Shown here piece after piece: positions 11,377 to 31,001 of a DNA stretch of 64,000 nucleotides. The notes under the pieces were generated by a model, which saw only the letters and a list, made by a program, of their open reading frames with translations, was not told where the DNA came from and did not search any database. This DNA is from Terriglobia bacterium. GTDB taxonomy: Bacteria > Acidobacteriota > Terriglobia > Terriglobales > Acidobacteriaceae. The first letter of the stretch is position 1; each line of letters begins with the position of its first letter. The position numbers and the translations under genes were made by a program. The stretch spans positions 1 to 64,000 of the forward strand of contig JAJPJE010000046.1 in NCBI GenBank assembly GCA_021324365.1, read 5' to 3'.

Positions 11377-12735
11377 CTAGATTTTTCGGGATCCCTCAGG
11401 CTTGCTCTGCTGAGGCGTTGGATAGAACACCGCCAGCCGCACGGTGCGCACGATCCACAACTGGCTTGCACCGTCCGGCGTACCACTCTCAACAAGCAGG
11501 GTGGTTGTTAACAGAACCGGAACTGCATGCATCTGCCGGGCGCTGGCTATCATGACCTTCGCTCTGCGTTGGTCAGTTCGTTTCGCGAAGGCATCTACTG
11601 TTCGCTTCGAGTCCCTCTGCAACGGCTTCGGGACTCTCACCATCGCGCTCTTCAATGCAGGTTTAAGCCCTGCCTGCATTGCGCGCGGCCGCCGGACTGT
11701 CATCAGGGCCGGGACCAATCTCGGCGCAAACTGCTGTACGCTCGCGAGGTCAGAAGCTTCTGCCCCTGCGGGTGCCCAGCTATCTCGAAACGTAACCAGC
11801 TCTGGCGCCTGCACCAATACGGCGGAACACGACAGCACTCCTACCAGACTCACAGCAACCGCCCACGGACGCGCCGATCGGCGCTCCTCTGCCCGAAGCA
11901 ACTTTTCCACCCGAAGCGATGTCTGTCGCATCCGGCTGACTGCAGCCTGAACCAGGGCGACGGTCCTTCGCAGAACGCTGCGTTCAGCCAAGCTTGCAAG
12001 GCATTGAGCGTAAGCACGGGCGTCGGAGGTCTGGGCCACGACGGCTTCGTCGCAGGCCATCTCACGTTCCAGCGAAAGCCTTTTCTCGAGCCACCAAACT
12101 GCCGGATGAAAGAACAACAGCGCACCCACAATCTTCTGCAGCAGGTTTGTCCAATCGTCGTAGCGCAACAGGTGCGTGCTCTCATGCAGCAGGAGTTGTT
12201 TCAGCTGGTCAGGCGGAAGTTGCCTGAGCAGATCGGCAGGAAAAACCACCGCAGGACGCACGAAGCCAATCGCCATGGGAACGCGCACCTGATCGGATGC
12301 GCGCAGCGTGAATTTCCTCTGCTGGCATGCGCGCTCGATCACCTCGCGTACAGTCGGATCCAAGGTGCCATTCTCCACTGGCACACTGTTTGAGCGTAGC
12401 TTTTGAATGTGCAGGGCACCGCGAATCACTATGCCGAGTCCAACACTCGCGAAAGCAGCCCAGCTAAACAACAGATAGGTTGCAAGTCCACCGGGCAACA
12501 CGATCAATCCATGCACTGCCGAACCCGGCTCAACTCCCCGGAGGCGTTGCAGCACGCCCTGAGCCACCGGCATGAGCGCGATTGCCGTCAGAGCGCCAAA
12601 CCACAGTCCAAAACGCAGTCCTGCCCTGCCAATGGGCAATACTCTGGAAAGCAACCAGGCCACAAGTGCGATGGCTAAACCCAACGCAAGGCTGCTGATA
12701 ATTGCTTCCGCGAGTTTTTGTGCGATGGCTTCCAT
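11377..12735 (-). CDS. M56 family membrane metallopeptidase (BlaR1/MecR1-like)
   Basis: The membrane sensor partner of BlaI repressors. In the known systems it senses an envelope signal and triggers cleavage of the repressor. Four hydrophobic segments lie within residues 1-215. The zinc site HESTH is at 184-188 and the second ligand region EREMACDE at 223-230. The C-terminal part (about 230-452) has one further membrane segment and a basic tail, but no penicillin-binding sensor domain, so the inducer need not be a beta-lactam. It lies 11 bases after the BlaI gene in the same direction. Confidence 0.88.
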   Translation of the reverse strand: MEAIAQKLAEAIISSLALGLAIALVAWLLSRVLPIGRAGLRFGLWFGALTAIALMPVAQGVLQRLRGVEPGSAVHGLIVLPGGLATYLLFSWAAFASVGLGIVIRGALHIQKLRSNSVPVENGTLDPTVREVIERACQQRKFTLRASDQVRVPMAIGFVRPAVVFPADLLRQLPPDQLKQLLLHESTHLLRYDDWTNLLQKIVGALLFFHPAVWWLEKRLSLEREMACDEAVVAQTSDARAYAQCLASLAERSVLRRTVALVQAAVSRMRQTSLRVEKLLRAEERRSARPWAVAVSLVGVLSCSAVLVQAPELVTFRDSWAPAGAEASDLASVQQFAPRLVPALMTVRRPRAMQAGLKPALKSAMVRVPKPLQRDSKRTVDAFAKRTDQRRAKVMIASARQMHAVPVLLTTTLLVESGTPDGASQLWIVRTVRLAVFYPTPQQSKPEGSRKI

Positions 12736-12746
12736 AACGTCCCAGG

Positions 12747-13124
12747 TCAGCTCTTCTGTTTCAAAAGTTCGCGCAAGCGCATCAATTCCTTGTCGTCGAT
12801 GCTTTCGTCCTCAATAAGGTTCAACACCAGCAATTCATGGGAGTTCTTAAAGAACCGGTTCACCAGATGTTTCACTTCGAATCGAGAGGCTTCCTTGCGG
12901 CCAATAACCGGAGCATACACATGGGCACGTCCATCTTTCCCGTGCTTGACGTATCCTTTCCGCTCCAGCACCCGAATGGTTGTAAGTACGGAGTTGTACG
13001 CCAACGGTGGATTCTCCTCCAGAGCATCCAGTACTTGCTGCACTGTGGCCGCACCCTTTTCCCACAGGACGTTCATCAAGCGGAGTTCAGCTTCGGTCAG
13101 GGTCGCGGACGTCTTCGGCGGCAC
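12747..13124 (-). CDS. BlaI/MecI/CopY family transcriptional repressor
   Basis: 125 residues. It has an N-terminal winged helix (LTEAELRLMNVLWEKGAATVQ, recognition helix near LAYNSVLTTIRVLERKGYV) and a C-terminal dimerisation helix. It starts with GTG at 13124 behind AAAAGGAG. With the downstream M56 gene it forms the usual repressor-protease operon, expected to repress itself through a dyad in the AT-rich stretch at about 13170-13215. Targets outside the operon are unknown; the beta-barrel gene on the far side is a candidate only by position. Confidence 0.9.
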   Translation of the reverse strand: MPPKTSATLTEAELRLMNVLWEKGAATVQQVLDALEENPPLAYNSVLTTIRVLERKGYVKHGKDGRAHVYAPVIGRKEASRFEVKHLVNRFFKNSHELLVLNLIEDESIDDKELMRLRELLKQKS

Positions 13125-16194: not shown

Positions 16195-17562
16195 TCAGAG
16201 CCAACGCATTAAGCCGCGTGCCTGCAGATCCCGTACAAGAAACTTCTTTCCGGCAATCGCTTCAGCCGCAAGATAGCCTCCGCGAACCGCGCCTTCCATC
16301 GTGGCCGGCCATCCAGTCGCTGTCCAGTCGCCCGCTAGAAAGACTCGTGGCCACACCGATTCAGCTCCCGGACGATATCCATCAACCCCCGGCTTCGGCG
16401 AATACGTTGCGTGCACTTCCTTAATCACGGTGCTCTTCACCAGCTTGGCCTGAGCAACCACCGGAAAGAATTCCGCCAGTTCGCGCATTGCGATGTCGAC
16501 GATCTCCTGCTTCGGTTTCTCGACTAGCGACTTGGACGAACTGACTACCAACTCCAGATAGCTGCCCTCGTCCTTCCGCCCCTGCAGCCGTGACTTGTTG
16601 AACATCCACTGAATGGTTCGATCCAGCAATACCGCGTGATCCAGTTCCGTCACCTTGCGATCGAACCAAAGGTGAATCCCGGTAATGGGCGAACTCTCGA
16701 AATGTGCAAGCATTCCTCGAAGACCCGCGTGGTTCGGTTCCTCTGGCAAAACCTGCTGAAGAGTGTTGAAAGGCAGCGCCAGCACCGCAAGGTCGGCGCA
16801 TACCTCGTTTCCGGCGACGGAAAGCTTCACACCATTATCATCCGCCGTGAACGAATCCACCGATGCCCTGAGCCGGACTTCCCCACCCCGCTCTTCGATG
16901 TATCTCCCTGCTGCGGAATAAAGCTGCGTCAGCGGAACTGTAGGAATCCCCATCCGGCCGGCTTCGCGTGACTTGAGAAACGACTCGCGAAAGACCAACG
17001 CCGCGTAACGCGTTGAAACCCTATCCAAGTCCTCATTGAGCGCACTCACCAACACCACGTTCCAAAAGCGATCGATCGCTCGTTGCGTCTGGCCGTGTCT
17101 GCGTAGCCACTCGAGAAACGGCTTGCCATCATCCGGTACTTCGCCCAGAAGAGACAGCATCGCCCGTGCGACCGCAGTTTTGTCTGCAACCGATAGTGCG
17201 TGAGCTTTCAAAAATGATGGCGATGTATGGAATGGCTCGGGCAGAAATGACGGACCGATTATAGAAATCCGCCCTCCAGGCTCGATAAAGTTGAGTTCCT
17301 CGAACCAGCGGACCTGATCGAGCACACCCGAACGTTGGTAGAGATCCAGCAGATTCGTGCAGCAGCCCAGCAATACATGCTGGCAGTTATCAACCACCTC
17401 CCCAGTCGCCGGGTGCTGATACGAAGAGGCCCGGCCGCCGAGGTACGGACGCCTCTCAAAAAGCTGTACGCGATATCCGGAATCGGCCAGTGCGCAACCG
17501 GCCGCCAACCCCGCCAGTCCTCCACCGGCGATCGCAACCGTACGTTGTAACTGGGCCATCAT
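16195..17562 (-). CDS. hpnE: hydroxysqualene dehydroxylase
   Basis: A FAD-dependent amine-oxidase-fold enzyme of 455 residues that reduces hydroxysqualene to squalene, the third step of the HpnCDE route. The dinucleotide-binding motif is GGGLAGLAAGCAL (residues 13-25), ending in the FER acidic strand and GGRASS. The C terminus has the second FAD motif (VFLAGDWTATGWPATMEGAV). It overlaps hpnD by four bases (ATGA) and is the last gene of the hopanoid operon. Identification rests on both sequence and the hpnC-hpnD-hpnE order. Confidence 0.92.
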   Translation of the reverse strand: MMAQLQRTVAIAGGGLAGLAAGCALADSGYRVQLFERRPYLGGRASSYQHPATGEVVDNCQHVLLGCCTNLLDLYQRSGVLDQVRWFEELNFIEPGGRISIIGPSFLPEPFHTSPSFLKAHALSVADKTAVARAMLSLLGEVPDDGKPFLEWLRRHGQTQRAIDRFWNVVLVSALNEDLDRVSTRYAALVFRESFLKSREAGRMGIPTVPLTQLYSAAGRYIEERGGEVRLRASVDSFTADDNGVKLSVAGNEVCADLAVLALPFNTLQQVLPEEPNHAGLRGMLAHFESSPITGIHLWFDRKVTELDHAVLLDRTIQWMFNKSRLQGRKDEGSYLELVVSSSKSLVEKPKQEIVDIAMRELAEFFPVVAQAKLVKSTVIKEVHATYSPKPGVDGYRPGAESVWPRVFLAGDWTATGWPATMEGAVRGGYLAAEAIAGKKFLVRDLQARGLMRWL

Positions 17563-18500
17563 GGCTGGAATCGCCGAAATAGTCCCCTGCCTAGCACTTT
17601 GAGCTTTTCGGTGGTAGAAAGGCGGATTTTTCCGCTGAACACGTTGTAGTCAGCTTTCGCGATCTTCTCCAGCAACCGGCTGTAGATCGTGACCAGCACC
17701 CACATTGCTGCGCGCGCATCCGGATCGAGCATCGGAATCAACTCGAACCCAGCTTTGTAGTACTCTCGGGCGCGATCGGCTTCGAGTTTCAGCAACGGCT
17801 TGAAACTCTCCGCATTCACTTCTCCGACGAAGTGTTCAGGATTTAATCCGAATGCCTGCAGGTCGTCATGCGGAAGATAGATGCGACCCATCTGCGCATC
17901 TTCTTTTACATCGCGAATAATGTTCGTCAACTGGAACGCAATCCCGGTTTTCTCCGCCAGGTCTTCGGCTTGTGCATCGCGATAGCCGAAAATGTGAATG
18001 CAAACCAGACCGACTACGGAAGCCACGTGATAGCAGTACTTATACAGATCCTGAAATGTCGTATACGGAACGGCAGGAGGCCGCCCAGGTTCTGCAGGCT
18101 CGACGCGCACATCCATGCTGGTGCCGTAAACCAGCTTCTCGAGCAATTGCACGGGAATCTTGAACCGCTGCTGGGTATCGGCGAGCGCCAGCAGCACAGG
18201 ATCGTCGGTAGCACGGCCGAATGTTACGCGATGGAAGCCTTCCAGCCACTCGCCTAATTGCTGCCGCTTTTTCTCGTCAGAAACATTGGGATCATCGGAA
18301 ATATCATCCGCGTGACGCATGAACGCGTACACCGCGCAGAGTGCATCGCGCTTGCGTCTGGGAAGCGCGACGAACGCGTAATAGAAATTCTTGGCCGATG
18401 CTCGGGTGATGCTCCGGCAGACTGCGTACGCCGCGCTCAGTTGCAGAGCTGCGGGTTTCTTTCGAGTGGGCTTGGCTGGGTTCTGCGTCAAGGTGCTCAC
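17559..18500 (-). CDS. hpnD: presqualene diphosphate synthase
   Basis: A trans-isoprenyl diphosphate synthase of the squalene/phytoene family, 313 residues. It joins two farnesyl diphosphates to presqualene diphosphate. The first aspartate-rich motif is in FMRHADDISDD (DDxxDD) and the second in NIIRDVKEDAQMGRIYLP (D-x3-D with the RIYLP box). It overlaps hpnC upstream and hpnE downstream by four bases each, so the three are translationally coupled. The C terminus is basic. Confidence 0.92.
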   Translation of the reverse strand: MSTLTQNPAKPTRKKPAALQLSAAYAVCRSITRASAKNFYYAFVALPRRKRDALCAVYAFMRHADDISDDPNVSDEKKRQQLGEWLEGFHRVTFGRATDDPVLLALADTQQRFKIPVQLLEKLVYGTSMDVRVEPAEPGRPPAVPYTTFQDLYKYCYHVASVVGLVCIHIFGYRDAQAEDLAEKTGIAFQLTNIIRDVKEDAQMGRIYLPHDDLQAFGLNPEHFVGEVNAESFKPLLKLEADRAREYYKAGFELIPMLDPDARAAMWVLVTIYSRLLEKIAKADYNVFSGKIRLSTTEKLKVLGRGLFRRFQP

Positions 18501-19447
18501 ACGAATCTCCGCACGGCTGCGCGGGCCAGGAGCAGGAACTTGCGACGCCTGGAGAGTGCAGGCCGCGATCTCAGCACATCATAGCCCTGCGCTTCGATCG
18601 CATTGAGGATCTCCTGCCCGCCCCGCGAAAAGAGTTCGATGTCGATGGCAAGTTCCTTCTCGAGCATCGCGGCCAGCGGAAGACCGCGCTCAAACCACTC
18701 GCGAGCGCGCTGCACTTCGAACTTCATCAAATCGATAAAACCTGGCGTGCAGCGCCGCTGCGAAATCTGCTCTTCTGTCACTCCGAAAGCACGCAAATCC
18801 TCGAGTGGCAGATAAATTCGGTTCTTCGCGTAATCGACCGTTACATCCTGCCAGAAATTCGCCAATTGCAGTGCGGTGCACGTGTAATCGGATAGCCGCT
18901 GACGGTCTGCATCGCGATATCCACAGACATACAGCACGAGCCGCCCGACTGGGTCCGCGGAATTCCTGCAATACCCGCGCACATCCTCGAATGTCTGGTA
19001 ACGCGTTACCACCTGGTCCTGCCGGAACGCCGTCAACAAATTGACGAATGGTTCCTTGGGAATCTCGCATTTCTGCACCGTTTCGCGTAGCGCCACAAAA
19101 ACTGGATGACGTGGATTTCCTGCATAGCATGCATTCAGTTCGGATTCCCACTCATCCATCAACAGCAACGACTGCTGAGAATCTCCAACCTCGTCGCCTA
19201 GATCGTCGCTGATCCGGCAATACGCATACACGTTGTAAAAATGCTGGTGCAGCCGGGCAGGAAGAAACCATGTCACGACGGAAAAGTTTTCGTAATGACT
19301 GGTCGCCAGCCGCTTGCAATAAGCCTGCGCTTCTGCCAAAGATGGCGGTTTCGCAGGAATGGCATACTCCGCTGGCAACGCCGACCATCCCGACGCTGTG
19401 GGGAACCGAGTGCTGTTCGAAGCTGCCATTCCTTTGTACCTGAACAA
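18497..19447 (-). CDS. hpnC: hydroxysqualene synthase
   Basis: A squalene/phytoene synthase fold protein of 316 residues that converts presqualene diphosphate to hydroxysqualene. Motifs: CRISDDLGDEVGD (first Asp-rich) and NFWQDVTVDYAKNRIYLP (second). Compared with HpnD the first motif is DDxxDE, which fits HpnC. The TTG at 19447 has AGGA six bases upstream. The ATG at 19429 is the alternative, but its AAAGGA is too close. It starts 56 bases after the dehydrogenase stop. Confidence 0.91.
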   Translation of the reverse strand: MFRYKGMAASNSTRFPTASGWSALPAEYAIPAKPPSLAEAQAYCKRLATSHYENFSVVTWFLPARLHQHFYNVYAYCRISDDLGDEVGDSQQSLLLMDEWESELNACYAGNPRHPVFVALRETVQKCEIPKEPFVNLLTAFRQDQVVTRYQTFEDVRGYCRNSADPVGRLVLYVCGYRDADRQRLSDYTCTALQLANFWQDVTVDYAKNRIYLPLEDLRAFGVTEEQISQRRCTPGFIDLMKFEVQRAREWFERGLPLAAMLEKELAIDIELFSRGGQEILNAIEAQGYDVLRSRPALSRRRKFLLLARAAVRRFV

Positions 19448-19503: not shown

Positions 19504-20553
19504 TTAGTGGCCGGGGATAATGGCGGTTTTGATGTCGCCATTCCGGTTCATCATGTGCTGCAGTACGTGGTGCAGGCGGGATAGCGGCGCTTCGCCCGTA
19601 ATGTAATCCGCGCTGCGAATCTTCCGCTCCGAAATCAAGGTGAACGCCTTGCGCACGCTCTCCGGTGTGTGATGGAACGTTGCCTTCAGCGTGATCTCGG
19701 AGTAGTGCAGCCGGTTCGTATCCAGCGAGACCTTGGTCCCATTCGCGCATCCACCGAAGAAGTTCACTGTGCCGCCTTTGCGCACCATGTCGATGGACTG
19801 CTCCCATGCCAAGGGACGCCCGACTGCTTCAACCACCACGTCAGCTCCGCGCCTGTCAGGCGTCAATGATCGTACCGCACCAACTGGATCGTCCGTTTTC
19901 GTGACCTGGATGACTTCATCCGCACCCAGCCTCTTTGCGGCGCCAACCTGCGAGTCGCGCTTCACCATCGAGATCACATTGCATCCCGTCAGCTTTGCCG
20001 CTTGCGTAAACATCAAGCCAATAGGACCGCCGCCGATCACCACAACGGTGTCGCCGATTTCTACGCCGGTCTCGTGTAGGCCGCGAAGGACGCACGCCAG
20101 AGGCTCGGCCATCGCGGCCTCTTCATAGCTCACGTTGGAAGGGATCGCCAGCATGTTGGTCTCAACGATGCGGCGGGGAATCTTGATGTACTCGGCGTAG
20201 GCACCGTTATTGAAGAGCAGGTCCTCACACAGATTTTCCTGGTGCTTCGAACAGTAGAAGCACATGCCGCAGGGCGCGGAATTCAGCGCCACCACGCGCA
20301 TTCCCTTTTTGAAGCCTTTTACATTGGGACCGACTTCCTCGATGATTCCCGCCAGTTCGTGTCCGAACAGAGCAGGCGGCACAATCATACGGGCGTGATA
20401 GCCTCGCTGATAAACCTTCAGATCGGTACCGCAGGTCAGTGCGACCTGCACCTTGATCAGAACTTCTCCTTCACCGACTCGAGGGATCGGAACTTTCTCG
20501 ATTTTTACGTCCTCTTTCCCGTAGAGGACGGCTGCTGTCATCTGACCGTTCAC
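19504..20553 (-). CDS. zinc-dependent MDR dehydrogenase (second of two)
   Basis: A medium-chain dehydrogenase of the sorbitol/threonine dehydrogenase type, 349 residues from the GTG at 20553 (345 from the ATG at 20541). The catalytic zinc site has TCGTDLKVY and GHELAGIIEEVG. The structural zinc cysteines are in SAPCGMCFYCSKHQENLC. NAD(P) binds at GGGPIGLMF. Directly abutting its paralogue and followed by hpnC, it sits inside the hopanoid operon. A role in reducing or oxidising the hopanoid side chain is inferred from position only. Confidence 0.85.
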   Translation of the reverse strand: MNGQMTAAVLYGKEDVKIEKVPIPRVGEGEVLIKVQVALTCGTDLKVYQRGYHARMIVPPALFGHELAGIIEEVGPNVKGFKKGMRVVALNSAPCGMCFYCSKHQENLCEDLLFNNGAYAEYIKIPRRIVETNMLAIPSNVSYEEAAMAEPLACVLRGLHETGVEIGDTVVVIGGGPIGLMFTQAAKLTGCNVISMVKRDSQVGAAKRLGADEVIQVTKTDDPVGAVRSLTPDRRGADVVVEAVGRPLAWEQSIDMVRKGGTVNFFGGCANGTKVSLDTNRLHYSEITLKATFHHTPESVRKAFTLISERKIRSADYITGEAPLSRLHHVLQHMMNRNGDIKTAIIPGH

Positions 20554-21672
20554 TTAATTTCCTTCCCACGTGCTGCCGGGCTGTATGATCAATTTCATCG
20601 TATCTGGCTGCGGATGCGCAGCAACGTTCAGCCCCTCAACAGCACCTGCTAGCGGAAAGCGATGGCTGATCAAGCTTTCCAGATTGGCGGCTCCGCTGAA
20701 AACCCACTCCGTGGAGGCCGGCTGCATGTCGACCGAGGCACTGTAGGAGCCGAGTAATGTCTTTTCGTCCACGCAGACTGACGCAGGATCAATCACCGCC
20801 TGCTCCCTCACGGTCTGCGCAAATAGCATCACGCGCCCTCCCGGGCGTGCCGAATCAATGGCATTGCGAATCAGCTTCGTTCCCGGGACTGCCAGAATCA
20901 CTGCGTCGGCGCCGCGGCTCTCAGTGATTCCCCGTATGTACTCAACTGTGTCCTGACGCGATGCGTCGATAGATTCGCTTAACCCAAACCCTCTGGATAT
21001 TGTAAGCCTCTGCGGGAACAAATCGGAAGTTACCACCCTTGCGCCCTTTCGCGCCGCCAAAACCCCGAGGATAATACCGATTGGACCTTGACCTATCACC
21101 AGAACCGTTTCCGACCCTCCAAGTTCCAGTGTTTCAATGGCCTTCCAGCATGTGTTCACCGGCTCCGCAAACGATGCCTGCTCGAAAGAAACATTGTCGG
21201 GAATGCGCACCACGCCCCTCTGGACAATCCAATCCATCACCCGAACGTACTCGGCGAAGCCGCCCCCGGAAGCTTCGTAACCAGCCGTACACCCTACCTT
21301 CTTGTAAACGGGGCATTGAGCGAACACCTTATGTTTACAGTAGTAGCATTCGCCACAAGGGATGTGATGAAAAACGATGACGCGATCGCCGGGACGGAAC
21401 TTCGTGACGCCTGAACCGATCCCCACAACAATGCCTGCCGTCTCATGACCGAAAATGCGGGGAGCAGAGTGTGAGCCAGTCGCAATCTTCTTCAGATCCG
21501 TACCGCAGATCCCGCATGTATGTACGCGAACCAGAATCTCTCCTGCGCCAATTTTCGGGACAGGCACTTGTTCAAGGCGCACGTCATTGATGCCGTAATA
21601 CACAGCCGCGCGCATCGTTGATGGAATGGGACTGCCTGCTGATTGATTCTGAACTTGAGTTACTGTACTCAA
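20554..21672 (-). CDS. zinc-dependent MDR dehydrogenase (first of two, next to hpnG)
   Basis: About 372 residues from the TTG at 21672. An ATG at 21615 just before AAVYYGINDVRLEQ is also possible, and a start at 21750 would run into hpnG. Catalytic zinc ligands are in CGICGTDLKKI and GHETAGIVVGIGSG. The four structural cysteines are in HIPCGECYYCKHKVFAQC. The cofactor loop is GQGPIGIILG. It resembles sorbitol/threonine dehydrogenases that act on polyols or their aldehydes. It lies 14 bases after hpnG and abuts the second dehydrogenase. The polyol-type fold beside HpnG, whose product carries a ribose, is suggestive. Confidence 0.84.
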   Translation of the reverse strand: MSTVTQVQNQSAGSPIPSTMRAAVYYGINDVRLEQVPVPKIGAGEILVRVHTCGICGTDLKKIATGSHSAPRIFGHETAGIVVGIGSGVTKFRPGDRVIVFHHIPCGECYYCKHKVFAQCPVYKKVGCTAGYEASGGGFAEYVRVMDWIVQRGVVRIPDNVSFEQASFAEPVNTCWKAIETLELGGSETVLVIGQGPIGIILGVLAARKGARVVTSDLFPQRLTISRGFGLSESIDASRQDTVEYIRGITESRGADAVILAVPGTKLIRNAIDSARPGGRVMLFAQTVREQAVIDPASVCVDEKTLLGSYSASVDMQPASTEWVFSGAANLESLISHRFPLAGAVEGLNVAAHPQPDTMKLIIQPGSTWEGN

Positions 21673-21686
21673 CTTTATGTTTTTCC

Positions 21687-22388
21687 TTAACTTACCTGTA
21701 CAACTCGGGATTTCCGGATCCCTGTAATCAGATGCTGTAACGCGGTACAAAGCTCGGCGGACGCTCGGGCAGAGTTTGTACCCATTCTGATCAACCCCGG
21801 CCAGTGCCCCGGCCTGATACTCATGTGGCCCAGGAACTTTGCTGTCCTGAAGATTCCCCTGTCGTCAACGAATGGCTCGAACGGCAACATTGGGAAGTCG
21901 AGTTCGTCCGAAATCGTTTTGACCGCGTAAAACGGGATTCCATGCCGCTTTGCAACGAGAGCGACAGAAGCTCCTTCCATGTCGACCGCCTCTGCCTGAA
22001 ATCGTAAATTCAATTCGAGCTTCGCCTTTCGATTTGCGATAAATCCGGAACTTACGATCCTGCTGCTTGAAGTCGATTCGGTACGGAAGTTCTCGCCCGT
22101 AGCGCTGTCCACCACGACTCCAGGAACGATGTCATCCGCGATTTTGCGTTCTGGAACCAGAGCGCCTGCAAATCCGGCAGAAATCAGAACGTCCGGCCCG
22201 AATTCTGCAACTAATGCCTCTGTCGCTCTGATTCCCGGCTCGCGACCGATGCCCGAAGCAACGTAGGCAGTATCGCCACTTTGATCGATTCTCGCTGCAA
22301 GACCCCCGGTTCGTTGTCGACGCCATCCGGAGATGAGCGGCGCTACCTCTCGTTGCAACGCCGAGACGATGCCGATCCTAATGGACAT
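21687..22388 (-). CDS. hpnG: hopanoid-associated phosphorylase
   Basis: A purine-nucleoside-phosphorylase-like enzyme, 233 residues. In characterised species it removes adenine from adenosylhopane on the way to ribosylhopane and bacteriohopanetetrol. The start MSIRIGIVSALQREVAPL at 22388 is typical. The frame is open for 68 more codons upstream, but these lie within hpnA. Key stretches: VLISAGFAGAL (phosphate/ribose side), AEAVDMEGASVA (the MEG ribose-binding motif) and VKTISDELD (base-binding Asp). It overlaps hpnA by 11 bases. Confidence 0.88.
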   Translation of the reverse strand: MSIRIGIVSALQREVAPLISGWRRQRTGGLAARIDQSGDTAYVASGIGREPGIRATEALVAEFGPDVLISAGFAGALVPERKIADDIVPGVVVDSATGENFRTESTSSSRIVSSGFIANRKAKLELNLRFQAEAVDMEGASVALVAKRHGIPFYAVKTISDELDFPMLPFEPFVDDRGIFRTAKFLGHMSIRPGHWPGLIRMGTNSARASAELCTALQHLITGIRKSRVVQVS

Positions 22389-23451
22389 AGCCGTTCGCCT
22401 GAAACCACTCGGCCGCACGCCGCAGGGCGCCATCCACTGGCGCAATCTTCCAGCCCAGCTCCCTCTCCGCTTTTGCCGAGGAAACAAACATCTTCTTGCG
22501 CCCCATGCGAACTGCATCGATGGTGGCGCGCGGCTCCCGCCGCAGGATGCAGCCGGTGAAGACGGTATCGAAAACACTGAAACCGAGCGCAACTCCGTAA
22601 GGGAGCTTCACCGTAGGCGCGGGAATACCTGTGATCGCCGAAAGCTTCTGCAGAATTTGCTCAAGCGTCAGATTCTGGCCGCCCAGAATGTAGCGCTCAC
22701 CCGATCTCCCCTTCTCTAGCGCCGCCATATGTCCTTCCGCGCAAACTGTGGCGTCGACCAGATTCAGCCCCGTATCCACGAACGCCGGAAACTTACAGCG
22801 CAGAAAATCGAGAATGATCCGTCCTGTCGGCGTTGGCTTCACGTCCTGTTCGCCGACTGGTGTCGAGGGATTCACGACAACGACATTCGCTCCCTTGCGT
22901 CCAGCTTCCAGTGCCACTTGCTCCGCCATGAACTTTGAGCGCTTGTAGTGCCCGATCATGTCAGGCAAGCCGACAGGTGTTTCTTCATCGACAATGGATC
23001 CGTCCTTCCGGAAGCCCATCGTCGCCACGCTGCTGGTATAAACCACCCGGCGCACACCGGATTCCTGTGCTGCTCGAATCAGGGAACGCGTTCCTTCGAC
23101 ATTCGACCGGTACATCTCCTGGGCGTCCGCCTTGTTCCTTGTCCACAAACGGTAATCCGCTGCGACGTGGTACACGAAATCGCATCCGGCCATTGCCTTC
23201 TTCAGCGAAGCCGCGTCACGCAGGTCACCAATCACCCGATCAGCTCTCAGCGAATTCACGTTACGCAGATCGCTGGTCCGTCTGACTAGCAACCTCAGAT
23301 CGGCTCCATTCGCTGCCAGAATTCGCGCCACATGGCTTCCCAGGAAACCCGTCGCTCCGGTGACAAAAATTCGCGGAGTATCGTGCGCGCCCGTTCTTTC
23401 GGAACGTGCAGAGGGATCCACTGAATTTTCGAAAGCTGCCGTATGCGCCAC
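22378..23451 (-). CDS. hpnA: hopanoid-associated sugar epimerase/reductase
   Basis: An extended SDR protein, 357 residues, close to dihydroflavonol 4-reductases and marker of hopanoid clusters; its exact reaction is not settled. The N-terminal 25 residues are a tail before the Rossmann motif VTGATGFLGSHVA. The active site has YTSSVATMG and YKRSKFMAE (YxxxK). The start codon abuts the shc stop without spare bases, and the 3' end overlaps hpnG, so the gene is embedded in the operon. Confidence 0.9.
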   Translation of the reverse strand: MAHTAAFENSVDPSARSERTGAHDTPRIFVTGATGFLGSHVARILAANGADLRLLVRRTSDLRNVNSLRADRVIGDLRDAASLKKAMAGCDFVYHVAADYRLWTRNKADAQEMYRSNVEGTRSLIRAAQESGVRRVVYTSSVATMGFRKDGSIVDEETPVGLPDMIGHYKRSKFMAEQVALEAGRKGANVVVVNPSTPVGEQDVKPTPTGRIILDFLRCKFPAFVDTGLNLVDATVCAEGHMAALEKGRSGERYILGGQNLTLEQILQKLSAITGIPAPTVKLPYGVALGFSVFDTVFTGCILRREPRATIDAVRMGRKKMFVSSAKAERELGWKIAPVDGALRRAAEWFQANGYVH

Positions 23452-25488
23452 CTAGTCTGTCCGGAGGCGTGCATCTTCGGCCGGAGTCGGCATTGCGCCA
23501 TTCTCCGCCGTGCTCGCCTTGTCTGCTCGTTGCATGCCCTTCATCACTTGTGAATACGTGGCCAGCGCGAGCAGCGGGAAATATTCCGCATACATGTGGT
23601 ATTTCAGATAGAAGACCTTCGGGAATCCGGTGCCCGTGTAGGTCTTCTCCCACCACGAGCCGTCTTTGCGCTGCGTGCGCAGCAAATACACGATGCCGCG
23701 CTCGACGCAATTGCTCCGCGTGTCCCCTGCCGCTAATAGACCCAGCACTGCCCACGCCGTCTGCGAAGCTGTGCTATCGCCTTGTCCGCGCAATGCCGGG
23801 TTGTCGTACGAGCCGAGCGTCTCGCCCCAGCCGCCATCCGGATTCTGCACGGACCGAATCCATTCCGCGGCCTGTTGAACGTAGGGTTCGTGGTTATCGA
23901 CGCCGATCGCCTGTAGTCCTCGCAGCACCAGGAAAGTTCCGTAAATATAGTTGCAGCCCCAGCGTCCGAACCAGCTGCCGTCCGGTTCCTGCTCTTTGAT
24001 CAGGAACTTGACCGCTTTCTTCACTGCCGGATGCTCAAGCGTGTACCCATGGTTCGCCAGCATCTCCAGCACGCGCCCCGTGATATCGACGGTTGGTGGA
24101 TCGAGCATGGCGTTGTGATCGGCGAATGGAATGTACTGAAAAACCATCTTCGTATTGTCTTTATCGAAGCTGGCCCATCCACCACTCTTGCACTGCATCG
24201 AGAGAACCCACTCAATGGCGCGCTGCACCGATTCGTGCTGGTAGCGCTCGTTGCTATGGTCGACGTGGTTCAGTGCGAGGCATACCTGTGCTGTATCGTC
24301 CACATCGGGATAAAACTCGTTGTTGAACTCGAAATACCAGCCGCCCGGCTGCGCTTTGGAATTCTTTACCGACCAGTCGCCCTTGTGAGTAATCTGCTTC
24401 TTCAGTACCCAATCTGCGGCGGCCTGCATGCGCGGATCTTTGCGCGACACCCCGCTCTCGCCCAGCGCAAACATCGCGTAAACAGTATCCCAGACCGGCG
24501 ACTTGCAAGGCTGCATGCGGAACGTATCTTCCTCTTCGATCCCGAGAGCCTCCAGTTCATCCATCGCGCGAATGAACTGTGGATCATCCACGGAGTAGCC
24601 CAGCGCGCGTAGCGCAATAATCGAGTTCATGACACCCGGGAAAATTGCCCCAAGACCGTCGCTCATCTCCAGGCGTTCCAACATCCACTTTTCCGCAGCT
24701 CTGATCGCAATCGAACGCAGCGGACGCACATGTACCCACTCGAACCAGTGCGTGATCCGATCCAGTCCCAGGAAAACATTGTTCCAACTTACGATCTTTT
24801 TCTTATTCCAGCGGAGATGCAGGTTCGCATTTTTTCGCCCCCCGACGAACAACTCGTCGATCGCCATCTCGACGGGGATCTTCTTCAACGGCTTCTTTGC
24901 ATAGACAATTGCGAGCGGGATGAAGATCGCGCGCGACCAGGATGAAATTTCGTAGATGTTGAACCAGAACCAGTTCGGAAACAGCACAATCTCCGGCGGA
25001 ATTGCCGGCACAGCATCCCACTCGTATTGACCGAAGAAGCAGAGATAAATCTTCGTGTAGGTATTTGCGGCCGTCACTCCGCCGAGTTCCACGATCTTCT
25101 TGCGCGCCCGCACCAGCGCAGGATCATCTGCACGATATCCGCAAAGTTTCAAGGCGAAGTAAGTCAGAATCGAAGCGCTAATCTCTGACGGACCGGTTTC
25201 ATAGATCGGCCAGCCACCATCGTCATTCTGGTGCGCCAGCATCCAGCGGCACGCCTTCTGCAGTTTGCGAGCGTCGCCCGTCCCGAGCAGCGTGTGCATC
25301 AGGATGTATTCGGCTTCCAGCGTGGTGTCGGCCTCTAGCTCGCCGCACCAGTAGCCTTCTTCATTTTGGGTTGAAAAGAGGTATCGACGTGCAGCGTCCA
25401 TGCTGGCCGCAAGACGGCTCATCATGTCATCGATCTTCCCGAAACGCATCGGGGCCTGGGGAGGAACAGCACCCGAAAATTGTTCCAT
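23452..25488 (-). CDS. shc: squalene-hopene cyclase
   Basis: Cyclises squalene to hopene/hopanol; a monotopic membrane enzyme of about 678 residues, the normal size. The protonating motif DVDDTAQ (DxDD at residues 395-398) is intact. Several QW repeats are visible, for example SGGWASFDKDN, DGSWFGRWGCNYIYG and DGGWGETLGSYDN. The ATG at 25488 has GGAG eight bases upstream and is preferred to the GTG three codons earlier. It follows ispH by about 130 bases that contain a small dyad (25533-25551). Confidence 0.95.
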   Translation of the reverse strand: MEQFSGAVPPQAPMRFGKIDDMMSRLAASMDAARRYLFSTQNEEGYWCGELEADTTLEAEYILMHTLLGTGDARKLQKACRWMLAHQNDDGGWPIYETGPSEISASILTYFALKLCGYRADDPALVRARKKIVELGGVTAANTYTKIYLCFFGQYEWDAVPAIPPEIVLFPNWFWFNIYEISSWSRAIFIPLAIVYAKKPLKKIPVEMAIDELFVGGRKNANLHLRWNKKKIVSWNNVFLGLDRITHWFEWVHVRPLRSIAIRAAEKWMLERLEMSDGLGAIFPGVMNSIIALRALGYSVDDPQFIRAMDELEALGIEEEDTFRMQPCKSPVWDTVYAMFALGESGVSRKDPRMQAAADWVLKKQITHKGDWSVKNSKAQPGGWYFEFNNEFYPDVDDTAQVCLALNHVDHSNERYQHESVQRAIEWVLSMQCKSGGWASFDKDNTKMVFQYIPFADHNAMLDPPTVDITGRVLEMLANHGYTLEHPAVKKAVKFLIKEQEPDGSWFGRWGCNYIYGTFLVLRGLQAIGVDNHEPYVQQAAEWIRSVQNPDGGWGETLGSYDNPALRGQGDSTASQTAWAVLGLLAAGDTRSNCVERGIVYLLRTQRKDGSWWEKTYTGTGFPKVFYLKYHMYAEYFPLLALATYSQVMKGMQRADKASTAENGAMPTPAEDARLRTD

Positions 25489-25532
25489 TCGATACACTCC
25501 GCAGAGTTCGCGAGACTCGCATCTCGTCCAGA

Positions 25533-25623: not shown

Positions 25624-26619
25624 CTAACTGACTCTCGCGCCTTCGATGCTCACGAACGATTGTGGTGCGTTGTTTACCGCATCGGCAATTTCCGGCGGCA
25701 ATCCAAAGCGCACGTTTTCCGGCATGACTTCCACTTCCTGCACATTGTTGAAACCGGCTCCAATTAGGTACGTGACCGCTTCCTGCACCAGAATCTCTGG
25801 CGCCGAAGCACCGGCTGTGAGCGCGATCGTTTTCACGCCCTCCAGCCACTCCGTACGAATTGCCCGGAAGTTCTCGATCAGGTACGAGGGAGTGCCCAGG
25901 TTCCTGGCAACTTCGACCAGCCGGTTCGAGTTCGAGCTGTTCACCGAACCCACAACCAACAACAACCCAGCATCACTGGAAGTTTGCTTTACTGCAGTCT
26001 GACGGTTCTCGGTGGCGTAGCAGATGTCTTGTGCGGCAGGTCCCTTGATATTCGGGAATTTTGCCTTAAGTGCCTCGATGATATCTCGCGTCTCATCCAG
26101 GCTCAGCGTCGTCTGTGTCAAATAAGCAACTTTATTAGGATTGGCGACGTGAACCTTCTCCACGTCTTGTACCGACCCGACCACCTGAGTAACCAATGGC
26201 GCCTCGCCCAAGGTGCCGATCACCTCATCGTGATCGTGATGACCGATCAGGATGAGCGAATAGCCTTCCTTGGCAAACCGTACCGCCTCCACGTGAACCT
26301 TAGTGACCAGCGGGCAAGTTGCGTCAATGACGCGCAGCTTCCTTGCCTTGCTCGCTTCGCGGACCTCGGGTGAAACCCCGTGGGCACTGTAGATGACCCT
26401 CTCACCCGCCGGGACTTCTTCCACGCTATCCACAAAGATAGCGCCCTTAGCCTGGAGTTCCTCGACGACGAAACGGTTATGTACGATCTCTTTGCGCACG
26501 TAAATGGGAGCTCCAAAGGTTTCCAGCGCAATGCGTACGATATCGATGGCCCGCACCACCCCGGCGCAGAACCCTCGCGGCTTCAGAAGCAGCAAAGTTT
26601 TTCCACTATCAACGTTCAC
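25624..26619 (-). CDS. ispH: 4-hydroxy-3-methylbut-2-enyl diphosphate reductase
   Basis: The last enzyme of the MEP isoprenoid pathway, making IPP and DMAPP with an Fe-S cluster. The three cluster cysteines are present: PRGFCAGV (Cys18), DATCPLVTKVH and DICYATENRQ. The proton relay THGE-type site appears as GHHDHDEV and the substrate loop as VGSVNSSNSNRL. The GTG at 26619 is preferred, as a -10 like ACTAGAAT lies upstream at about 26643-26651. The frame stays open to 26703, so a longer N terminus is possible. Its place before shc ties precursor supply to hopanoid synthesis. Confidence 0.93.
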   Translation of the reverse strand: MNVDSGKTLLLLKPRGFCAGVVRAIDIVRIALETFGAPIYVRKEIVHNRFVVEELQAKGAIFVDSVEEVPAGERVIYSAHGVSPEVREASKARKLRVIDATCPLVTKVHVEAVRFAKEGYSLILIGHHDHDEVIGTLGEAPLVTQVVGSVQDVEKVHVANPNKVAYLTQTTLSLDETRDIIEALKAKFPNIKGPAAQDICYATENRQTAVKQTSSDAGLLLVVGSVNSSNSNRLVEVARNLGTPSYLIENFRAIRTEWLEGVKTIALTAGASAPEILVQEAVTYLIGAGFNNVQEVEVMPENVRFGLPPEIADAVNNAPQSFVSIEGARVS

Positions 26620-26807
26620 TATTTGCCATCCACCATCACTATAGATTCTAGTATGCCCGAAGAATATGCATTTAAACATATCTAAAAAGATGCTCTTAGT
26701 CAATGTAAGGCGCTGGATTTACAAGGGTTAGCATCGATTGGATACTGGGAGCACGTGAAACGCGGTTATCGCGGCCAAGTGGTTGGCTCTGGCGGGTACA
26801 AACCAGG

Positions 26808-28502
26808 TCAGGCGTTCGTTTTCAGCATCTGCTCGGCATGTTTGCGGCTGGCGTCCGTCAGCGTCGCCCCGCTCAGCATTCGTGCCACTTCTTCCCGGCG
26901 ATCGGTATCACTCAGGTGCTTGACCGTGGTCCTGGTCCTCCCGCCTGCCTCTGTTTTCTCAATCAAATAATGGTGATCGGCAAAAGAGGCGATCTGCGGG
27001 AGGTGCGTGATACAGAGAACCTGGGTGGTCTGCGACAGCGCCTTCAGCTTGCGTCCCACAGCTTCCGCTGCTCGCCCGCCGATGCCAATGTCGATTTCAT
27101 CGAAGACTAGAGTACGTTGCGAACTTGTCTTCTTCTTTGATGACTTCCCTGCCTCGACCGCTACCTTCAGCGCCAGCATGACGCGTGACAACTCGCCACC
27201 AGAAGCAATTTCCTCTAACGGCCGTAATGGCTCGCCGGAGTTCGTCGAGATCACATATTGGACTGCATCGAAGCCGCTACGTGTCCAGTTCGCTTCCTCG
27301 TCATCGCCCGTGACCTCTACTTTGAATCGGGCCTTCATTGCCAGATCATTGATTTGGGATTCAACTACTTTCTCCAGCTTCCGCGCCCCTTCGAATCGCT
27401 GCTTTGATAACGATCGCGCTGCCGTCAGATAAACGGTGCCAGCGTTCTCCAGCTCTTTTCTGAGCCTTCTCAGGACTTCATCCTTATTTTCCATCTCGTG
27501 AAGCTTGCGCGAAACCTCTTCGCCGTACGCCATAACTTCGCTCAAGCTCGGGCCATATTTCCGTTTCAGTCGATCCAGCGCGGCGAGCCGATCATCTACT
27601 TCCGCCAGCCGCTCCGGCGACACACTCACCGACTCGGCGTAGTCACGCAGCGTGACTCCAATGTCCTCTACCGCTATTCTGGCGGACTCCAGTTGCGCCA
27701 GCGATTCGCGGAACTTCTCGTCATATTTTGCGACTTCCTGCGCCTGCTTGTATCCAGCCCGTATCAGTGCAGACGCCGAAGTGTCGCTCTCGTACAAAGC
27801 TTCGTAGGCAGCTTGTGCAGCCGCGTAAATTTTTTCAGCGTTGGCGAGGACGCGTTTCTCGCCGCCGAGCTTTTCGTCTTCTCCCTGTTGCGGGTTAACC
27901 TCGCAAATTTCTTTCTTCTGGAAGGACCAAAGATCCACCAGTCGAAGCCGGTCCTGCTCATCTCTTTCCAGCGCGCCGATGTGCTCGCGTAGCTCCTTCC
28001 ACTTCTCAAAAGCAGCTTCCGTGGCTTGATGATCGATTCCCGCATAACGGTCTAGCAATTCCAGGCGCGTGTCTTCACCAAAAGACACGATCGATTCCCT
28101 CTGCGAATGCACCGAAGCCAGTACCGGCGCCAACTGTTTGAGCACGGTCACGCTGGCGGGTTGATTGCACACAAATGCGCGGCCGCGCCCACCAGCCATA
28201 ATCTCGCGCCGCAAGATTACGTGCTCACCGTCAAAATCAAGGCCATTTTCTTCCAGAATTGCAGTGATGGCCGTGGCTTCCGCAGCTTCCTGCAACTCGA
28301 AGACAGCGCTGACCACGGCCTTATCCGTTCCGTGGCGAATCTTATCCGATGAAGCCTTTTCACCTAATAACAACGCAAGCGCATCGATGAGAATAGATTT
28401 TCCGGCACCGGTTTCGCCGGTCAGCAGATTCAGGCCCGGGGCGAACTCCACAATCACACTATCGATCACTGCGTAATTTTCGACGCGGAGTTCCAGGAGC
28501 AC
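26808..28502 (-). CDS. recN: DNA repair protein RecN
   Basis: An SMC-like ATPase for double-strand break repair, 564 residues from the GTG at 28502. Walker A is GETGAGKS in TGETGAGKSILIDALALLLG. A long central coiled coil is interrupted by a short hinge. The ABC signature ASGGELSRVMLAL and Walker B TLVFDEIDIGIGG are near the C terminus. The open frame extends 32 codons further upstream but those residues do not look conserved. It is transcribed toward ispH with a gap of about 190 bases to the preferred ispH start. Confidence 0.94.
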   Translation of the reverse strand: MLLELRVENYAVIDSVIVEFAPGLNLLTGETGAGKSILIDALALLLGEKASSDKIRHGTDKAVVSAVFELQEAAEATAITAILEENGLDFDGEHVILRREIMAGGRGRAFVCNQPASVTVLKQLAPVLASVHSQRESIVSFGEDTRLELLDRYAGIDHQATEAAFEKWKELREHIGALERDEQDRLRLVDLWSFQKKEICEVNPQQGEDEKLGGEKRVLANAEKIYAAAQAAYEALYESDTSASALIRAGYKQAQEVAKYDEKFRESLAQLESARIAVEDIGVTLRDYAESVSVSPERLAEVDDRLAALDRLKRKYGPSLSEVMAYGEEVSRKLHEMENKDEVLRRLRKELENAGTVYLTAARSLSKQRFEGARKLEKVVESQINDLAMKARFKVEVTGDDEEANWTRSGFDAVQYVISTNSGEPLRPLEEIASGGELSRVMLALKVAVEAGKSSKKKTSSQRTLVFDEIDIGIGGRAAEAVGRKLKALSQTTQVLCITHLPQIASFADHHYLIEKTEAGGRTRTTVKHLSDTDRREEVARMLSGATLTDASRKHAEQMLKTNA

Positions 28503-28932
28503 GGCACACCCAGGACAAGAGATGAAATCTCGCCGCAGTTTAGCAGTGAACGATTTGCAACGTACAGTAGTCAGTAGCAAGTAGTCACATGTGATCAATG
28601 ATCTCCTACTAAGAACATCCGGCTACCTGCTAGAACCGGTTCTATAAGTGTGACTTGAAGGGGCGCGGCTTTCAGTCGCGCCGCTCTGAGCCACGAACCG
28701 AGGTGCTTTAGCCCCCGAGGTCTGGCGTCCTTACTGGGATGCATTCGTAAAACCGGTTCTACTGACTTCTGACAACTTCTGACTGACTGCTGACTATCCC
28801 TACGCGAATCTTGCTAATTCCGACGTAAATGTACCTTGTATGCAATCAGTACATGCCCCTAGGGAGTCATCTTATGTAGTTGCCTGTTCTATAATTGCGC
28901 TTGCAGATTCTGCGCGAAAAACAAGAGAAGTG
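28503..28932. repeat. gene-free intergenic region with REP-like hairpins and palindromes
   Basis: 430 bases between recN and tolQ with no credible gene. They contain a perfect 14-base palindrome TAGAACCGGTTCTA (28631-28644) and a second AACCGGTT core (28751-28758). Between them is a GC hairpin GGCGCG/CGCGCC (28662-28667 with 28677-28682), followed by GGTGCTTTAGCCCCCGAGG, a degenerate half of a GGGGCTTTAGCCCC-type repeat. A dyad ATGTAC/GTACAT (28829-28834, 28849-28854) and a TATAAT box (28890-28895) belong to the tolQ promoter area. Confidence 0.6.
28890..28895 (+). promoter_or_regulatory. -10 element of the tol-pal promoter
   Basis: A perfect TATAAT. The matching -35 (around 28866-28872) is weak. 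The predicted start of transcription near 28902 lies about 30 bases before the ATG at 28933 and supports that tolQ start. Confidence 0.5.
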
Positions 28933-29655
28933 ATGCTAAATCCGCTTTTGATTGCCAGTGTTGTCGGTGGTGACGAGTTAGCAAGCCTGCTTGGACAAAC
29001 AGGTCCTGTCGCCAAGACCGTTCTCGTAATTTTGCTTTGCTTCAGCCTGTTTTCCTGGGCAATTATCCTTTCGAAGTGGAGCACATTCCGCCGCGCACGC
29101 GTCCAAAGCTCGCGTTTCCAGCGCGCATTTCGACGTGCCACCCGCCTCCAGGATATGGCTGCTGTTGCGGACCAGTTTAAGCCCAGTCCGCTGGTTCCTG
29201 TTTTCGAAGGCGGCCTTGAAGAACTGAAACGTCAGGGCGGACCGCGCAATCCCGTCGCCATCCAGCGAGCGATGCAGATCGCATCTTCGGAGGAACTGAC
29301 TCGCCTCGAGCGTCGCCTTCCCTGGCTTGCGACCACTGGCTCCGTCACTCCGTTTGTGGGTCTGTTCGGTACCGTATGGGGCATTATCGATGCCTTCCAG
29401 GGCCTTGGCACGGCTGGTGCCGCCACCCTGCGCGCTGTGGCGCCGGGTATTTCCGAAGCACTTATCACTACGGCGGCTGGCCTGTTTGCTGCTATCCCTG
29501 CGGTTATCGCCTACAACTTCTTTGTAAGTGAAATTCGTCAGTTTGGCGCTCGTATGGACGATTTCTCCATGGAGATGCTCAACAATGTGGAGCGCGCCAC
29601 CGTCGCGCCGCCTCCAAGGCAGGCCATGGTGGTTCAGGAAGCGGAACTGCGATAG
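28933..29655 (+). CDS. tolQ: TolQ/ExbB-type proton channel subunit
   Basis: The inner-membrane motor protein of the Tol-Pal system, 240 residues. The first membrane helix is at about 22-42 (VLVILLCFSLFSWAIILSKW), and two further helices flank the conserved PFVGLFGTVWGIIDAFQGLG loop and GISEALITTAAGLFAAIPAVIAYN. The start at 28933 has AAGAGAAG upstream and a -10 box in the right place; the frame is open back to 28840. tolR follows after three bases. It opens a six-gene envelope operon. Confidence 0.92.
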   Translation: MLNPLLIASVVGGDELASLLGQTGPVAKTVLVILLCFSLFSWAIILSKWSTFRRARVQSSRFQRAFRRATRLQDMAAVADQFKPSPLVPVFEGGLEELKRQGGPRNPVAIQRAMQIASSEELTRLERRLPWLATTGSVTPFVGLFGTVWGIIDAFQGLGTAGAATLRAVAPGISEALITTAAGLFAAIPAVIAYNFFVSEIRQFGARMDDFSMEMLNNVERATVAPPPRQAMVVQEAELR

Positions 29656-29658
29656 CAC

Positions 29659-30087
29659 ATGGCTTTCACCAATACACAAGGTAAGACGCAGAGCTCGCTG
29701 GCCGACATCAACGTCACGCCGCTGGTAGACGTCGTTCTCGTGCTGCTGATCATCTTTATGGTGACTGCGCCAGTGCTGCAATCAGGCATTGAAGTCAACG
29801 TCCCGAAGACGAAAACCGTCAAGGAAATTACCGAAGAACGCCTGGTGATCTCCATCGACAAAGAGCAGCGCGTCTTTCTCGGGAATGATCCAATCAACAT
29901 CAACTCGATTGGAAATACGCTTCACCAGAAAATTCGCGATCCACAGGGTCAGGCGATTTATGTTCGTTGCGACGAAGAAGTACCCTTCGGTGTTTTCGCA
30001 ACAGTCATGGATGCAGTAAAGCAGTCTGGCATAACCAATGTCAGTGTCGTGACCCAGCCTTTGAATGAACATGGCGGCAAACGCTGA
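29659..30087 (+). CDS. tolR: TolR/ExbD-type motor subunit
   Basis: 142 residues, with one membrane helix at about 22-42 preceded by the signature DINVTPLVDVVLVLLIIF. This carries the aspartate (LVDVV) used for proton translocation. The periplasmic part is a short ExbD fold ending in IRDPQGQAIYVRCDEEVPFGVF-type strands. It lies three bases after tolQ and overlaps the next gene by 23 bases. Confidence 0.92.
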   Translation: MAFTNTQGKTQSSLADINVTPLVDVVLVLLIIFMVTAPVLQSGIEVNVPKTKTVKEITEERLVISIDKEQRVFLGNDPININSIGNTLHQKIRDPQGQAIYVRCDEEVPFGVFATVMDAVKQSGITNVSVVTQPLNEHGGKR

Positions 30088-30862: not shown

Positions 30863-31001
30863 TGAGTAGCACAGGCGGGATGCTGGTGGAAAAAGAGCTT
30901 TGTTCTTTTGTCATCATAACCGGATGCGAGTTCATGAGAGATCTGCATTCCCGCAGCTTTCTCGGTTACTGCCACACTCCGGAGTTGAATTAAGGCGAAC
31001 G

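Follow-up and report, generated by a model that had tools for sequence, protein, structure and literature searches.

Acidobacterial hopanoid genes have been described as separate clusters by Sinninghe Damste et al. (2017; PMC5462960). In the passages of that paper drawn on here, cluster A is ug2-hpnC-hpnD-hpnE and cluster C is hpnA-hpnG-ug1; ug2, whose product of about 350 amino acids (aa) often bears the annotation zinc-binding alcohol dehydrogenase, is linked to the squalene genes, no function is given for ug1 or ug2, and hpnA is suggested as a possible catalyst of the then-unknown ribosylhopane step. According to the corresponding passages of a 2025 alphaproteobacterial study (PMC12583986), the enzyme that converts ribosylhopane to bacteriohopanetetrol is not yet established. 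Here we analyse 64,000 nucleotides of a soil-dwelling Terriglobia bacterium (contig JAJPJE010000046.1; this whole stretch is called the window). A run of nine genes on its minus strand includes two zinc-dependent medium-chain dehydrogenase/reductase (MDR) genes, MDR1 and MDR2, placed between hpnG and hpnC. An earlier, sequence-only reading of the window had called the ribosylhopane reductase unassigned, in agreement with what both papers say in these passages. No paper assigning such a reductase was found in our literature search, most subscription papers being outside its reach. Ribosylhopane reductase activity has reportedly been described for a Methylobacterium cell-free system, to judge by the title of a 2015 paper by Bodlenner.

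The ug1 and ug2 genes occupy the same positions as MDR1 (after hpnA-hpnG) and MDR2 (before hpnC-hpnD-hpnE). MDR2 fits ug2, and MDR1 is probably ug1, an equation made from position only, the product of ug1 being unstated in the paper's passages. The association of these genes with hopanoid clusters is already published (PMC5462960); the cofactor split and the MDR1-less loci described below come from the present analysis, and those passages mention neither.

Zinc sites, fold and cofactor motifs of the two dehydrogenases

By domains, catalytic and structural zinc sites and fold, both proteins belong to the zinc MDR superfamily. ADH_N and ADH_zinc_N score over the Pfam cut-offs in each, and the catalytic zinc ligands (C, H, E, E) and the four-cysteine structural site are retained, no position having more than one exception among the 94 MDR1 and 92 MDR2 sequences of the operon clade. 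The earlier claim that both enzymes keep their zinc ligands is thereby borne out; among later loci, the MDR2 of L254 has Asp in place of the first Cys ligand. AlphaFold2 models had a mean predicted local distance difference test score (pLDDT) of 94.1 for MDR1 and 92.6 for MDR2. The best PDB profile match of both was the NADP(H)-dependent ketose reductase 1e3j, which has the same catalytic zinc ligands and structural zinc cysteines; it and the sorbitol dehydrogenases resemble the two proteins in fold over the full length (Z 40.5 for MDR2 and 39.3 for MDR1) at about 30% identity. The top VIA-align match of both models was the NADP-bound putative zinc-binding dehydrogenase 4ej6/4ejm of Sinorhizobium meliloti (Z 42.7 and 40.9), likewise about 30% identical and itself of no known function. 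L-threonine 3-dehydrogenase (TIGR00692) was among the best NCBIfam matches, at 177.2 bits for MDR2 and 151.8 bits for MDR1, far below its equivalog cut-off of 458.35 bits; neither protein passed any NCBIfam cut-off, the L-threonine 3-dehydrogenase and scyllo-inosose 3-dehydrogenase models included.

In the comparison of motifs, exact duplicates were dropped and the remaining 118 MDR1 and 114 MDR2 rows were grouped by locus, the Vicinamibacteria-type MDR1 group including an unrelated 27% paralogue from L094. At the end of the second Rossmann strand, Asp or Glu is among the commonest forms of MDR1 in every group, whereas MDR2 has Lys-Arg, Arg-Arg or neutral/basic forms in most groups; the distant f47 pairs have Asp in MDR2. 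On the basis of this acidic versus basic difference, MDR1 is predicted to be NAD-type and MDR2 NADP-type.

Co-occurrence with HpnH and placement beside hopanoid genes

HpnH is a marker of the extended side chain and HpnE of the squalene branch. The HpnH model that we used gave no match in 14 control genomes. In a class sample of 250 genomes (E cut-offs 1e-80 for MDR1, 1e-75 for MDR2 and 1e-60 for HpnH), the 203 HpnH-positive genomes comprised 177 with both MDRs, seven with MDR2 only, one with MDR1 only (G368) and 18 with neither, 12 of these 18 falling in the single family f70. Among the 47 HpnH-negative genomes, 43 had neither MDR and four had both; three of the four (G251, G267 and G416) are less than 90% complete, and in G427, which is 97% complete, shc-hpnA-hpnG-MDR1-MDR2-hpnC-hpnD stand together. 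Relatedness inflates these co-occurrence counts, and Fisher values, which take no account of kinship, are not treated as probabilities here.

The same association was seen in an evenly sampled set of 199 Acidobacteriota genomes. MDR1 orthologues were found in 29 (at least 49% identity, E 4.6e-112 or better; the next match by E-value has 36%), all of which also have MDR2, and MDR2 occurs without MDR1 in one further genome, G132. HpnH is present in 28 of the 29 MDR1 genomes. None of the 28 genomes with HpnE and no HpnH has an MDR1 or MDR2 orthologue, and six HpnH-positive genomes keep both MDRs although HpnE was not found in them. Where neither HpnH nor HpnE was found (n = 121), one genome has both MDRs (G113) and one has MDR2 (G132); G113 possesses SHC and an hpn cluster, and the absence of HpnH and HpnE there is probably a gap. 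These results support the view that the MDR pair tracks HpnH and not squalene synthesis. As a separate observation, genus g40 has a single hpnD-like gene at the site occupied by hpnC-hpnD in others, and 6/6 genomes gave no HpnE match.

Placement is conserved as well. In the phylum sample hpnA or hpnG lies directly upstream of MDR1 in 28/29 genomes, and hpnC or an hpnD-like gene directly downstream of MDR2 in 28/30. Even in the 12 of 29 genomes where MDR1 and MDR2 are not adjacent, MDR1 remains by hpnA/hpnG and MDR2 by hpnC-hpnD. A set of named loci, the 80 most similar to the G066 MDR1 out of 537, gave a similar picture when flanks that were too short were excluded from the denominators: MDR1 adjoins MDR2 in 74/79, hpnA/hpnG is upstream in 58/75 and hpnC/hpnD downstream in 62/70. 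Upstream hpnA/hpnG is missing from 17 loci: L134-L139, L143, L148 and nine more. Several of the nine (for example L171, L176 and L194) have hpnA, shc and ispH a few kb off on the opposite strand. It had been reasoned that a hopanoid role would fail if the paralogues were found equally often away from hopanoid genes; such exceptions exist, but 28/29 in the even phylum sample is far from that. Conservation across genomes, together with the HpnH co-occurrence in both samples, bears out the link of the pair to hopanoids, which is not local chance. In family f28 (L028-L034, L051, L061, L088-L091 and L106) MDR1 directly follows hpnA, and an HpnG-like match lies on another contig.

A tree was built from 91 rows, selected out of 312 segments collected. 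With midpoint rooting, and with some long branches, the branching of MDR1 and MDR2 is largely mirrored, and the operon rows fall within a set of older pairs located away from hpn genes. The fork that unites the operon rows with a UBP4 row has support of 99/92 in MDR2 and 85/80 in MDR1, where it also takes in an Armatimonadota row.

Gene order at the locus and in families f72 and f70

Gene ends and start codons read off the sequence give the minus-strand order ispH-shc-hpnA-hpnG-MDR1-MDR2-hpnC-hpnD-hpnE (Table 1), confirming the genes, strand and hpnG-MDR-MDR-hpnC order first proposed for this hopanoid run. IspH, SHC, HpnA, HpnC and HpnE score above their NCBIfam cut-offs, and HpnD and HpnG below. 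The gene for HpnH is outside the operon, in the same assembly but on a different contig (G000:C117:9903-10853). Of the intergenic gaps originally given as 14, 0 and 56 bases, the last two stand, since the GTG of MDR2 at 20553 comes immediately after the MDR1 stop and 56 bases separate the MDR2 end at 19504 from the hpnC TTG at 19447. The gap of 14 requires that MDR1 start at TTG 21672. As Met occupies the column of ATG 21615 in 27 of 28 aligned MDR1 sequences (the starts of the other sequences being script-picked), the gap between hpnG and MDR1 is probably 71 bases. The alignments held 28 of the 29 MDR1 and 29 of the 30 MDR2 orthologues, one near-identical row being omitted from each.

Table 1. 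Genes of the hopanoid run, with positions in the window; the last row gives positions in the loci named
Feature	Position	Strand	Remarks
ispH	25624..26703	-	TIGR00216 317.4 bits (cut-off 187.85); open reading frame (ORF) as listed from TTG, true start probably downstream
shc (hpnF), squalene-hopene cyclase	23452..25497	-	TIGR01507 775.1 bits (cut-off 431.1)
hpnA, hopanoid-associated short-chain dehydrogenase/reductase	22378..23451	-	TIGR03466 481.3 bits (cut-off 367.65); overlaps hpnG start
hpnG, nucleoside-phosphorylase-like	21687..22388	-	233 aa, ATG; divergent, TIGR03468 85.5 bits (cut-off 187.1)
MDR1, zinc MDR dehydrogenase	20554..21615	-	353 aa from ATG 21615; 372 aa from TTG 21672
MDR2, zinc MDR dehydrogenase	19504..20553	-	349 aa from GTG 20553; 345 aa from in-frame ATG 20541
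hpnC	18497..19447	-	TTG start; TIGR03464 352.8 bits (cut-off 250.45)
hpnD	17559..18500	-	TIGR03465 246.2 bits, under cut-off 278.6
hpnE	16195..17562	-	TIGR03467 490 bits (cut-off 283.05)
f72 MDR1-less loci	L238 8280-11691; L248 5550-9516; L264; L265; L266		natural MDR1 loss

Elsewhere in the window, an apparent M56/BlaR1-like peptidase gene adjoins a BlaI/MecI-like repressor gene on the minus strand (11377-13124), and a putative Tol-Pal-like run (ExbB/TolQ, ExbD/TolR, TonB/TolA-like and TolB-like) on the plus strand (28840-32329) diverges from a recN-like gene (26808-28598).

Natural losses separate the two dehydrogenases. Five of the seven MDR2-only genomes in the class sample belong to family f72 (G215, G230, G243, G249 and G255), and all five f72 loci that have MDR2 show the order hpnG-MDR2-hpnC, with MDR2 immediately after hpnG and MDR1 absent; MDR2 retains the KR cofactor motif there. 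Since this group has lost MDR1, that gene appears dispensable, and the presence of MDR2 in its usual place makes MDR2 the better reductase candidate. We therefore rejected the proposition that MDR1 and MDR2 are equally likely to be the reductase. The f72 genomes G223 and G237 (both 88% complete) have HpnH and neither MDR gene. The remaining MDR2-only genomes, G341 and G419, reach contig edges, as does G262, and the MDR1 of G419 is cut at the edge.

In family f70, G246, G258, G273 and G290 have the order hpnH-hpnA-hpnG-MDR1, and in G220, G227, G281 and G299 hpnH-hpnA is followed at the locus by neither hpnG nor MDR genes. The f70 loci of this latter kind are L239, L241, L243 and L244; in L241, hpnA is followed by a 491-aa ORF for a putative aldehyde dehydrogenase.

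Possible functions of the pair

We consider a role of the MDR pair in the hopanoid side chain to be fairly probable, and the two genes are good, if unproven, candidates for the missing step that finishes the sugar-like tail. In the scheme proposed here we infer the substrate, the direction, the cofactor use and the division of labour between MDR1 and MDR2. In line with what has been published on other bacteria, HpnH would make adenosylhopane and HpnG would strip it of adenine, leaving ribosylhopane. The ribose ring would then open, the zinc of MDR2 (C37, H61 and E62, with E146; numbering from ATG 20541) would polarise the C-35 aldehyde, and delivery of a hydride from NADPH would yield bacteriohopanetetrol. 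MDR1, as the NAD-type partner, may act on the same tail, either on an adjacent carbinol or by catalysing the reverse reaction. We tentatively assign to MDR2 the NADPH-dependent reduction of the aldehyde in open-chain ribosylhopane, and give this assignment somewhat less than even chances. One or both of the dehydrogenases had been put forward as reductase candidates in the sequence-only reading; MDR2 is favoured by the f72 loci and the cofactor motifs, and MDR1 less so.

A number of observations weigh against this assignment. Gene linkage is not activity, and the pair is not universal where HpnH is present: orthologues occur in 28/50 HpnH-positive genomes of the phylum sample and both genes in 177/203 of the class sample, which leaves 22/50 without MDR1/MDR2 orthologues and 18/203 without both. 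One of the 22, G007, is not read as a biological loss because the contig carrying its hpn genes stops 2.4 kb past hpnH; HpnH and SHC were found in this genome, and MDR1, MDR2, HpnG and HpnE gave no match. Chloracidobacterium thermophilum makes bacteriohopanetetrol without ug2 according to the 2017 passages (PMC5462960). Since producers without the pair exist, another enzyme must carry out the reduction in them. The f70 genomes G342, G358 and G366 have an hpnG match by hpnA at a contig edge, and MDR1 and MDR2 were not found in them, which argues against a simple joint loss of hpnG and the MDRs. The nearest structures, by sequence profile and by fold, are identical for MDR1 and MDR2, and so have no bearing on the cofactor split. 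Moreover, both proteins lack the Arg-Tyr pair that we take to be the substrate-binding signature of sorbitol dehydrogenases: in the alignment, 1e3j has FRY where MDR2 has FHH and MDR1 has YSA. The label 'polyol-type' used earlier thus holds for the fold and zinc site and not for this substrate pair.

Also to be set against the assignment are pairs outside the hopanoid context. The pair is carried by loci L134-L139 of genomes G199-G204, MDR2 being truncated at the contig end in L134. Searches of these six genomes, for which completeness figures are not given, detected no HpnH and no SHC; two of the records are titled Vicinamibacteria and four only Acidobacteria. HpnC was found in three of the six, with no match in G200, G202 and G204. 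Their motifs are like those of the operon genes, with FHHTP in 6/6 MDR2 rows and HHxPC and YSxS in 7/8 Vicinamibacteria-type MDR1 rows, the eighth being the L094 paralogue. In G066, which has HpnH, the pair is unlinked to hpn genes and comes after a Pro_dh gene, as in L136. The UBP4 genome G206 has MDR1-MDR2-hpnC-hpnD-hpnE (L148 10001-15622), SHC was not found, and its HpnH-like match reaches only 80.7 bits, under the cut-off of 225. In the Armatimonadota genome G205 the pair is unlinked and both HpnH and SHC are present. Given the pairs away from hpn genes and the nesting of the operon rows among them, the pair is not limited to the hopanoid context, and the idea that it is exclusive to hopanoid genomes was rejected on account of G199-G204.

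No clear pathway emerged from genes near the non-hopanoid pairs in a hand-picked subset of neighbouring ORFs. Some neighbours recurred; those noted were EAL proteins (L135, L136 and L137), WYL regulators (L135 and L136), Pro_dh (L094 and L136), MetW (L138 and L139), a polyprenyl synthetase domain (L138) and FAD oxidoreductases (L074 and L087). The pairs directly after a proline dehydrogenase gene lie at L094 8580-11616 and L136 8882-12102.

Several of these findings could be accommodated if the pair tailors the side chain and another enzyme makes bacteriohopanetetrol. MDR1 would oxidise a carbinol (e.g. C-34) and MDR2 would reduce the ketone, so that a stereocentre is inverted or a keto/amino derivative is fed. 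The opposite cofactor motifs retained in MDR1 and MDR2, the old two-gene pair with its largely mirrored trees, the HpnH-positive genomes without either MDR, and nearest structures that include a ketose reductase and sorbitol dehydrogenases, enzymes acting on secondary carbinols, are all consistent with this. A strict two-enzyme relay does not, however, predict the five f72 genomes with MDR2 only, and a single literature search showed no acidobacterial side-chain stereochemistry among the entries listed; such tailoring seems rather unlikely. We regard as unlikely that the operon captured a general sugar or alcohol dehydrogenase pair with a small-molecule substrate, with no dedicated hopanoid role, or one in redox balance. 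The similar motifs in G199-G204, genomes that gave no HpnH or SHC match, the Pro_dh neighbour in G066 and L136, and more distant adjacent pairs with no hpn gene nearby (f32, f47, G078, G132 and G192) point in that direction, but the joint presence or absence with HpnH in the class sample, and the retention of each gene by hpn genes in the 12 genomes with MDR1 and MDR2 apart, do not.

A role in squalene synthesis might be suggested by MDR2 remaining with hpnC-hpnD where the operon is split, and by the UBP4 order MDR1-MDR2-hpnCDE with SHC not found. It is very unlikely in view of the six HpnH-positive genomes that keep both MDRs with HpnE not found and the lack of an HpnC match in pair-bearing G200, G202 and G204. 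Furthermore, the 0/28 result in genomes with HpnE and no HpnH led us to reject it as the principal explanation. Finally, the pair may act as a redox couple on the polyol tail, MDR2 making bacteriohopanetetrol and MDR1 and MDR2 together resetting a stereocentre or making a keto intermediate. Genomes with both genes, with MDR2 alone (f72) and with neither would then have distinguishable side chains, and the pair would have been taken from a module for an equivalent sugar-like group in non-hopanoid bacteria. This combined proposal is quite unlikely as a whole.

Hopanoids are sterol-like lipids of bacteria, and bacteriohopanetetrol and related compounds find wide use as molecular fossils. Beyond the published association of ug1 and ug2, the present analysis adds a predicted cofactor split and the MDR1-less loci. 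Overall, MDR2 as a specific gene, the natural MDR1-less loci and the hopanoid clusters without the pair make the question of how the side chain is completed directly testable.

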